Shown here in pieces: positions 24,352 to 25,417 of a stretch of 37,683 bases of DNA. This DNA comes from Phycisphaerae bacterium. Its GTDB lineage: Bacteria; Planctomycetota; Phycisphaerae; Phycisphaerales; SM1A02. Each line of letters opens with the position of its first letter. Position 1 is the stretch's first letter. The notes below the pieces were generated by a model. That model saw only the letters and a program-made list of their open reading frames with translations. It was not told where the DNA came from and searched no databases. Location: positions 1-37,683 of the forward strand of contig JAERSY010000038.1 of NCBI GenBank assembly GCA_016845245.1, read 5' to 3'. The position numbers and the translations under genes are program-made.

Positions 24352-24357
24352 AGTGTA
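24352..24357 (-). promoter_or_regulatory. Candidate -10 box (TACACT) for leaderless spoIID-like mRNA
   Basis: TACACT on the minus strand ends seven bases before GTG 24344, directly after the terminator of the upstream gene. The 21 bases between the terminator U-run and the GTG leave no room for a normal leader. The -35 would have to overlap the terminator hairpin. Confidence 0.35.
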
Positions 24358-24362
24358 CATAG

Positions 24363-24392
24363 AAAAAAGGGTTTTCTATTCAGAAAACCCTT
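24363..24392 (-). terminator. Strong intrinsic terminator of the TPR/alpha-CTD gene
   Basis: A perfect 10-bp stem (AAGGGTTTTC with GAAAACCCTT) and 6-base loop (24367-24392) is followed on the minus strand by an unbroken run of T (24368-24363). It lies 24 bases after the stop codon of the upstream gene and separates it from the spoIID-like gene. Confidence 0.88.
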
Positions 24393-24415
24393 CGTTCAAA
24401 TTCGTAAGTGTTTGA

Positions 24416-25351
24416 TTAGTCAATTTTTCGGAGTTCAAGACCGTGGTTTTGAAGTCCTTCGTTAATCTCGTCAAGACTTGTTGAACCAAAGTTCTTAATG
24501 CCCATGAGTTCTGCTTCTGTTCGAATTGCAAGATCGCCAAGCGTTTGAATGTTGAGCAGTTGAAGCGCTTTACGAGCACGAACTGACAAGCTGAGCGTTG
24601 AAACGGGTTGTTTGAGCACTTGCTCTGGAGCATGGTTTAACAATTCTTTGTAACGGTCTTGGTGAACTTTGGATACGTGACCAGTTTCAGTTGCCTGACC
24701 GAGTCGCAATCCCCTTGCTGTCAACATGTGTTTAATCTCAACAAGTGAGGTTTCGCCAAAGTTTTTATAGCTTAAGAGTTCTGCTTCTGTCACTTTGAGC
24801 AAATCACCAAGTGTTCGGATATCCATCTTCTTTAAACAGTTTCGTGCACGCACTGAAAGTTCAAAGTCAGTCACTGGTGTGTTCATGAGTGCTGCTGTCT
24901 TCGCTGCATCTCGAGCGACTTCTTCGTCATAGTACATTTCTGTAGAAGACTGAACATCAACCATGTAGAGTCGTGCTCTTTCATGGTTTGGGTCAGTGTC
25001 AAGGATTTGTCGTAAGCACTTTTCTGCTGCAGACAATTGACCATTGTCCTCATAAACAACGGCTAAGTTCAAAAGCGCATTGATGTGTGGTCGTTCAGCG
25101 CATGTGATTGATTCGTAAAGCTCAACTGCTTCTCTTTCTTCACCGACTAAATCGAGAAGGTAAGCGAGTTGAAATTTGTGTTCTGGATTTGCGCCTTGTT
25201 GAATTGCTTGTCTAAGTTCTTCAATTGCGCCGATGCGAAAACCGTTTTGTTCGTGTTCCATTGCAGCTTCGTAATGCTTGTTTGCTGCTTCTGGATTGCC
25301 GCCACCAATCATGGTGTCTAATGTTGAATCAAAGTGTTGTGTGTTTTCCAA
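24416..25351 (-). CDS. TPR protein with two tandem RNA-polymerase alpha C-terminal domains
   Basis: 311 residues. Residues about 18-135 form three TPR-like repeats (HYEAAMEHEQNGFRIGAIEE; LNLAVVYEDNGQLSAAEKCL). Two alpha-CTD copies follow, about 156-220 and 246-311, exactly 90 residues apart. Each has LSVRAR, a LGDL turn, TEAEL and KNFGxTSLxEI. Aligned to E. coli RpoA, Arg265 is kept in both (R168, R258), Asn268 in the first (N171; K261 in the second), Gly296 and Ser299 in both, while Lys298 is Thr in both. These residues contact UP-element DNA and activators. The start is TTG with GGAG eight bases upstream; an ATG at 25312 lacks such support. Such proteins are typical of Planctomycetes. It probably binds DNA or RNA polymerase partners, but no function is established to my knowledge. 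Confidence 0.85.
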   Translation of the reverse strand: MENTQHFDSTLDTMIGGGNPEAANKHYEAAMEHEQNGFRIGAIEELRQAIQQGANPEHKFQLAYLLDLVGEEREAVELYESITCAERPHINALLNLAVVYEDNGQLSAAEKCLRQILDTDPNHERARLYMVDVQSSTEMYYDEEVARDAAKTAALMNTPVTDFELSVRARNCLKKMDIRTLGDLLKVTEAELLSYKNFGETSLVEIKHMLTARGLRLGQATETGHVSKVHQDRYKELLNHAPEQVLKQPVSTLSLSVRARKALQLLNIQTLGDLAIRTEAELMGIKNFGSTSLDEINEGLQNHGLELRKID

Positions 25352-25388
25352 TGTTCTAACTCCGTCTTCTACCTAAGTGTGATGGAAG

Positions 25389-25417
25389 ATTGTACAGAAG
25401 ATAATGATTGAGTGCAA
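25389..25417 (-). promoter_or_regulatory. Sigma70-type promoter of the TPR/alpha-CTD gene
   Basis: TTGCAC (25417-25412) and TACAAT (25394-25389) are separated by exactly 17 bases on the minus strand, just after the MATE stop codon. Transcription would start near 25382, about 30 bases before the TTG start codon. Confidence 0.72.

Follow-up and report, generated by a model that had tools for sequence, protein, structure and literature searches.

A TPR protein with two RNA polymerase alpha-CTDs in nearly all sampled Planctomycetota genomes: a candidate DNA-binding accessory factor

Gene and domain architecture

The window (the whole stretch of DNA analysed, 37,683 nucleotides of Phycisphaerae contig JAERSY010000038.1) carries on its minus strand a coding sequence of 311 residues (24416..25351, stop codon included) in which the open reading frame and Pfam together place a TPR domain ahead of two RNA polymerase alpha-CTDs. 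Translation starts at a TTG with a GGAG Shine-Dalgarno-like motif just ahead of it, and TTG or GTG stands at the matching place in all 5 congeners whose aligned slice covered the start. The TPR domain (residues about 20-138; 24938..25294, minus strand) is recognised by Pfam, where TPR families match about residues 73-132 (TPR_14, 36.6 bits against a cut-off of 23.5), by the structure model and its PDB matches, and by conservation of D67, N95, E101, and D102; the protein thus counts as a TPR protein both by its repeats and by its modelled fold. Alpha-CTD copy 1 (residues about 157-219; 24695..24883, minus strand) is supported by PF03118, by sequence matches to the solved alpha-CTDs 1coo, 3k4g, and 1lb2, and by column counts; copy 2 (residues about 248-308; 24428..24610, minus strand) is supported by PF03118, by its own model, and by matches to solved alpha-CTDs. 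PF03118 (RNA_pol_A_CTD) matches in two stretches with 136.1 bits against a cut-off of 23.8 (whole-protein E 3.2e-40), and in a search of the window's own genome the two copies separately score 76.3 and 66.5 bits; chance is excluded as the source of these matches, and a generic helix-hairpin-helix identity is ruled out by the score of HHH_5 (14.6 bits against 136 for PF03118).

An earlier note, made from the sequence alone, had described two alpha-CTDs at 90-residue spacing behind a TPR domain and had proposed an HMM search against the alpha-CTD; with both copies over the PF03118 cut-off, that description holds. Membership in the PF03118 family is also borne out by the fold and the DNA-contact residues: R168 and R258 occupy the position of E. 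coli R265, N171 and K261 that of N268, and T201 and T291 that of K298, just as the note had read them. R168 and R258 lie 90 residues apart, and this spacing is nearly constant in the family (89 or 90 residues in 94 of 133 members, range 84-99). The net charge of the two CTDs in the window is +2 and -1, neither strongly basic, and the protein as a whole is acidic (-16).

Pfam finds no further polymerase domain in the 311 residues, in agreement with the earlier note, and no alpha-NTD family, the N-terminal assembly and dimerisation part of RpoA, is among its matches; RpoA equivalog models give only 77-134 bits against cut-offs of 228-523, their best stretches lying at the C-terminal ends of the models alone. 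The comparison with the genome's own rpoA that had been suggested finds a separate gene elsewhere (G000:C47:20592-21485, 345.9 bits over positions 2-297 of 298), and the three PF03118 matches in this 1.91 Mb assembly (93% complete) are the two in the TPR protein and the one in rpoA. The reading frame of this rpoA (L002, L004) extends dozens of mostly acidic residues past its CTD. The nearest named relative of the window protein comes from a Phycisphaerales MAG and is 95% identical. Four further proteins, three from outside the class and one from within it, have two PF03118 stretches together with TPR matches in frames of 434-482 residues, so that the window protein is one with a shorter N-terminal part. 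An RNA element within the gene span was rejected, since Rfam at gathering scores gives only two tRNAs in the window, and no PHROGs family was matched.

Promoter, terminator, and neighboring genes

The promoter claimed in the earlier note, TTGCAC-17-TACAAT (25389..25417, minus strand), consists of TTGCAC at 25417-25412, a 17-nt spacer, and TACAAT at 25394-25389. A plain consensus scan of the window finds 4 promoter-like sites where shuffled sequences give 3.8, and 3 terminator-like sites where they give 5.1; neither is an excess, so a consensus match alone proves nothing. Conservation of the hexamers is better evidence: TTTGC and GTACAAT are invariant and constantly spaced in the window and in 7 of 7 congeners (L085-L091, some of them mutually close), while the sequence between them varies. 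A terminator-like hairpin with a T-rich tail follows the gene (24356..24393, minus strand); its stem at 24393-24366 has 12 pairs (4 of them G-C) around a 4-nt loop rather than the 10 pairs described, and the scan lends it no excess over shuffles; the hairpin is similar in L085, different stem-loops can be made out by eye in L086-L088, and the part of L089-L091 that was aligned shows none.

The gene lies between a MATE transporter gene upstream (PF01554; 25424..27007, minus strand) and a gene for a SpoIID-domain protein downstream (PF08486; 23100..24344, minus strand), both identified by Pfam and the neighbor table. We compared 103 loci, comprising 62 of a set of 63 loci (L147 left out), 40 chosen stretches (10 in-class and 30 out-of-class), and the window, with neighboring genes called and clustered by a custom script and RuvA, SpoIID, and MATE each confirmed by Pfam on one representative. 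On the same strand, the first gene downstream encodes the SpoIID-domain protein in 26 of the 62 loci, in 8 of the 10 in-class stretches, and in the window; the first gene upstream is MATE in 27 of the 62 loci and in the window. A solitary gene in a dedicated single-gene unit, as the earlier note had it, fits the genus, but elsewhere the gene can follow closely behind MATE (gap of 4 nt in L113 and -4 in L116, with starts set by the longest frame) or precede ruvA. In 6 of the 7 congeners (L086-L091), an opposite-strand gene is next downstream, ahead of SpoIID where the contig extends that far; in L086 (10958-12829) it encodes an M48 peptidase, and the same cluster recurs in L087-L091.

Outside the class, the gene is followed directly by a same-strand ruvA in 17 of 30 loci (within L178-L213, for example L198-L203), at gaps of 7-68 nt in 13, 114 nt in one, and negative in three, the negative values arising because the longest frame was used. 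Within four genes, ruvA is absent from the set of 62 loci, from all 10 in-class stretches, and from the window. L190 combines ruvA (+1), an apparent ruvB (+2, named by eye), and SpoIID (+4), and may preserve the older gene order.

Distribution in Planctomycetota and beyond

With the family alignment as query, 246 of 247 Planctomycetota genomes (those requested as at least 95% complete, together with the window's genome at 93%) gave a match at E <= 1.6e-48, the sole exception being G019 (E 2.3e-17); the phylum survey that had been called for thus returns the protein nearly everywhere, and an oddity of one lineage is ruled out. In samples that overlap with one another, long matches (best E <= 1e-30) were found in 37 of 41 genomes of relatives, 58 of 61 genomes of the class, and 139 of 149 genomes from across the phylum, which varied in quality. 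A second phylum, which we take to be Cyanobacteriota, gave no equivalent match in 39 genomes (best E 2.3e-18, the best E being complete for each genome), and among the matches listed for these genomes none covers both parts of the protein.

The genomes without a long match are G006, G016, G019, and G020 among the relatives, and G046, G057, and G061 in the class sample. G006 and G020 also have no SpoIID gene and no close homolog of MATE, which fits a missing block of assembly, and G061 also looks like an assembly gap because its contig stops 428 nt past the SpoIID match; G046 lacks the SpoIID gene. G016 and G019, from the same family (L233, L234), keep the MATE homolog but have no TPR-CTD gene near it and no SpoIID gene, and may have lost the two genes jointly; the G019 contig stops 2.4 kb past MATE.

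Spread on plasmids or known phages was considered and rejected: none of 61 plasmid records and none of 9 phage records covers 80% of the query, and among the plasmid matches listed the best 20 of 61 hit the CTD part only, and 8 carry an RNA polymerase alpha annotation. Five viral contigs (L236-L240), four of them recovered by a second scan, contain frames with one alpha-CTD-like stretch, among them L237:4797-5228 (143 residues, PF03118 E 8.3e-19) and L238:4923-5258 (111 residues, E 4.8e-17), each lying roughly 1 kb from the gene for a terminase large subunit; the phage contigs reach 205 kb. Two distinct phage sequences (L236/L237 and L238/L239) nest within the clade of copy 2 with support of 0.76-0.87 over about 60 positions, which looks like capture from a planctomycete host; L240 is placed only weakly.

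Searches of open-access literature, supplements aside, brought up no TPR plus alpha-CTD protein by name, although annotations of such proteins are probably present in databases; nor is one named in 12 of 14 passages of PMC10632474, whose Planctopirus limnophila essentiality data sit in its supplements.

Age and divergence of the two copies

In a FastTree phylogeny of 284 domain sequences, CTD1 (125 of 125) and CTD2 (126 of 126) each form one clean clade, with support of 0.989 and 0.853, confirming the earlier suggestion that the copies have diverged. Since each clade spans the phylum and holds both in-class and out-of-class members, the copies split early, before the divergence of those groups; the joint grouping of CTD1 with CTD2 has support of only 0.067, so either one duplication from RpoA or two may have taken place.

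Residues were counted in 133 unique family ORFs and 32 RpoA sequences, one of which (L147) is not planctomycete; because the family set leans to Phycisphaerae, the counts were repeated on 43 out-of-class proteins. R265 is kept in all 133 members in both copies and in 32 of 32 RpoA. Position 268 is N in 102 and T in 31 for copy 1, but K in 103, R in 24, and N in 4 for copy 2 (K or R in 127 of 133), against N in 30 for RpoA; out of class, copy 1 has N in 41 of 43, so its Thr is mostly an in-class change, and copy 2 has K in 20, R in 12, and N in 5. At position 269, copy 1 has C in 126 and copy 2 A in 115 and C in 17, while all 32 RpoA have C; C269 is found in 43 of 43 and T298 in 42 of 43 out-of-class copies 1. 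Both copies prefer R at 267 (131 and 123 of 133) where RpoA has S in 17, A in 6, and R in 3, and at 297 copy 1 is acidic throughout (E 116, D 17) and copy 2 mixed, against K in 25 and R in 4 for RpoA (29 of 32). N294 (133 and 133), G296 (132 and 133), S299 (132 and 133), and E302 (133 and 129) are almost unchanged in copies 1 and 2; of the DNA-contact set R265, N268, G296, S299, and E302, copy 1 therefore keeps all five in most members and copy 2 all but N268.

Thr in place of K298, listed in the earlier note for both copies, does not set this protein apart: position 298 is T in 96 and S in 28 for copy 1, T in 130 for copy 2, and T in 31 with K in 1 for RpoA. That the copies and the RpoA of the phylum have Thr in common where E. 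coli has Lys would fit an origin of both copies inside the planctomycete lineage, as judged from this residue. A DNA-contact position has thus changed in planctomycete RNA polymerase itself, with zero entropy in 31 of 31 RpoA once L147 is set aside.

Copy 1 has D at 259 in 132 of 133 members and E (122) or D (10) at 261, on the surface that in E. coli alpha-CTD faces sigma region 4, and positions 286 and 288, which in E. coli face activators, are E in 133 and 131 and in 120 and 118 of 133 members (copies 1 and 2).

Conservation of the DNA face and the TPR groove

In E. coli alpha-CTD, DNA is contacted by positions 265, 268, 269, 294, 296, 298, 299, and 302. We compared the mean entropy of these eight positions with that of 5000 random eight-position sets: it is 0.25 in RpoA (1 of 5000 sets as low), 0.30 in copy 1 (146 of 5000), and 0.25 in copy 2 (0 of 5000), and among the 43 out-of-class proteins 0.06 in copy 1 (0 of 5000) and 0.68 in copy 2 (3 of 5000). 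The same preference is seen neither for the sigma-facing set (257-259 and 261), where 1781 (copy 1) and 4858 (copy 2) of 5000 random sets are as conserved, nor for the activator-facing set (4178 and 1125 of 5000). Conservation at some of the contact positions may reflect a part in the fold, and the test falls short of proof; preferential conservation of the contact positions nonetheless favors DNA binding by the CTDs, and makes DNA association their best-supported role.

The TPR domain is conserved at N95 (133), D102 (132), E101 (129), and D67 (126 of 133), and out of class at N95 (43), D102 (41), and E101 (39 of 43) but at D67 in only 29. We take D67, E101, and D102 to be positions 12-13 of TPR helix A, lining the concave groove; the ligand of so acidic a groove would be a basic peptide.

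Predicted folds

An AlphaFold2 model of the full protein from a 46-row alignment (mean pLDDT 80.2) predicts the TPR helices at about residues 20-138, followed by two alpha-CTD-like helix sets linked via a helix at 224-240; the relative placement of the domains is unreliable because pTM is only 0.41. VIA-align matched this model to TPR structures at Z 15.6-17.4; as the TPR end (about residues 1-168) took up its whole list, a separate model was built for copy 2 (44 rows, pLDDT 84.1). The predicted fold of copy 2 matches alpha-CTDs of the solved structures 1z3e_B (Z 11.5, 67 aligned residues, 1.2 A, 39% identity), 1lb2_B, with CAP and DNA (Z 10.9, 68 residues, 1.8 A), and 9zum_A, on A+T-rich DNA (Z 10.9, 70 residues, 2.1 A). 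The tool warns that Z below about 13 can be common among helical bundles; we uphold the match because identity in these three is 39-41% (38-42% in 18 of the top 20 rows and 36% in the other two) and because of the HMM score. Foldseek with the full model, which reports no query range, also returned the 9zum chains of Caulobacter alpha-CTD bound to A+T-rich DNA, which align over 64-65 columns at 0.7-0.8 A with 49-50% identity. The earlier note had named helix-hairpin-helix folds unlike alpha-CTD as grounds for rejecting its reading; the model of copy 2 instead agrees with the alpha-CTD fold.

Possible functions

With moderate confidence, we interpret the protein as an accessory factor belonging to the planctomycete core, one that would bind DNA and most likely act in transcription; its tandem CTDs would bind A+T-rich, UP-element-like DNA and its TPR domain would serve as an adaptor. 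R168 and R258, on CTDs whose connecting linker hardly varies in length, would insert into A+T-rich minor grooves, and the pair may sit on adjacent subsites, much as RNA polymerase places one of its two alpha-CTDs on the proximal half of an UP element and the other on the distal half; the TPR groove with its near-invariant acidic residues would hold the basic peptide of a partner and carry it to, or away from, the sites bound by the CTDs. DNA binding, promoter targets, and TPR ligand are here predicted from sequence, and the effect would presumably be activation, repression, or marking. The roles put forward in the earlier note, namely competition with RNA polymerase for UP elements, recruitment of activators to TPR partners, and marking of promoters, are likewise putative. 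Against this interpretation, the acid at 297 in copy 1 and the loss of N268 in copy 2 could change or weaken DNA contact, for which R267 may compensate; neither CTD is strongly basic in the window and the protein is acidic; the sigma-facing and activator-facing sets show no preferential conservation; and D67 is less well kept out of class.

Linkage to ruvA in the out-of-class genomes also suggests a part in DNA repair. A repair or recombination helper, its CTDs serving as HhH clamps on branched or damaged DNA and its TPR domain recruiting RuvA or another repair factor, would account for the 17 out-of-class loci and for the clustering of ruvA, an apparent ruvB, and SpoIID within four genes in L190; we nevertheless consider it unlikely, with no ruvA cluster member that near in any of the 62 loci, the in-class stretches, or the window, and with domains that are specifically alpha-CTD rather than generic HhH. 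Distinctly unlikely, in our judgment, is a decoy whose CTDs need no DNA and mimic the polymerase tail, so that activators or sigma bind the TPR-CTD protein instead: the glutamates at 286 and 288 would suit it, and the single CTD2-like phage proteins could themselves be decoys, but the DNA-contact set is far better conserved than the activator-facing one.

Two likely minor-groove domains per chain in nearly every genome would also befit a nucleoid-associated protein acting on A+T-rich minor grooves genome-wide without a specific promoter role. Nucleoid proteins are usually basic and abundant, however, and at -16 this one is acidic, which leaves such a role only a slim chance. We find it very improbable that the protein is an adaptor bound to RNA polymerase or the ribosome, its CTDs touching a protein such as NusA: alpha-CTD does contact NusA in E. 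coli, and the structures matched by fold are of alpha subunits, a few of which come from complexes that include NusG or NusA (no evidence of contact here), but the best conserved set is the one that contacts DNA.

Near-universal presence of a TPR plus twin-CTD protein in the sampled genomes points to an undescribed core factor on promoters or DNA, and we return to the accessory factor as our preferred interpretation. More tentatively, it could be a phylum-wide second alpha tail, whose CTDs would act in trans on both UP-like halves and set promoter strength together with a dedicated TPR partner, and whose CTD2 large phages might have captured as a takeover or counter device; the phage proteins suggest that the factor was worth capturing. 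The protein is made from RNA polymerase's own DNA-reading domain, and if it does act at promoters, transcription in Planctomycetota has a basal factor missing from model bacteria, and UP-element logic in the phylum must be re-read.

Comparison with known systems

Alpha-CTD-like stretches outside RpoA have several precedents. In BREX PglW, a large kinase, model NF033442 matches the window protein at E 3e-10 over 99 residues and PDLC02512 does so at 1.1e-10 over 76; membership can be rejected, since these models run to about 1400 positions and the window protein, which has no kinase, reaches 38.5 bits against a cut-off of 990 in a best stretch confined to residues 134-232. PRK07758 (NF005841, 95 positions), a stand-alone alpha-CTD-like protein, likewise has its domain detached from RpoA (E 1e-11), but has the length of a single domain and no TPR, and the window protein scores 44.9 bits against a cut-off of 115. 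The RpoC variant PRK14906 (NF011498) has an extra alpha-CTD-like stretch near its end (E 7e-7, best over window residues 255-306), but there the stretch is part of the beta' subunit, and the window protein reaches 26.9 bits where the cut-off is 1437. The PVC signature protein of Lagkouvardos et al. is reportedly a small nucleic-acid-binding protein, much smaller than that of the window. The phage proteins (L236-L239) share the CTD2 clade, and those of L237 and L238 also share the PF03118 match but have one domain and no TPR match in Pfam.

The closest likeness is to the CTD of RpoA itself, with which both copies share fold, HMM score, R265, G296, S299, and E302, as well as the Thr298 of RpoA in this phylum. 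The family in the window differs from RpoA in lacking the alpha-NTD and carrying tandem CTDs on a TPR domain instead, in R at 267, in the acidic residue at 297 of copy 1, and in K or R at 268 of copy 2.
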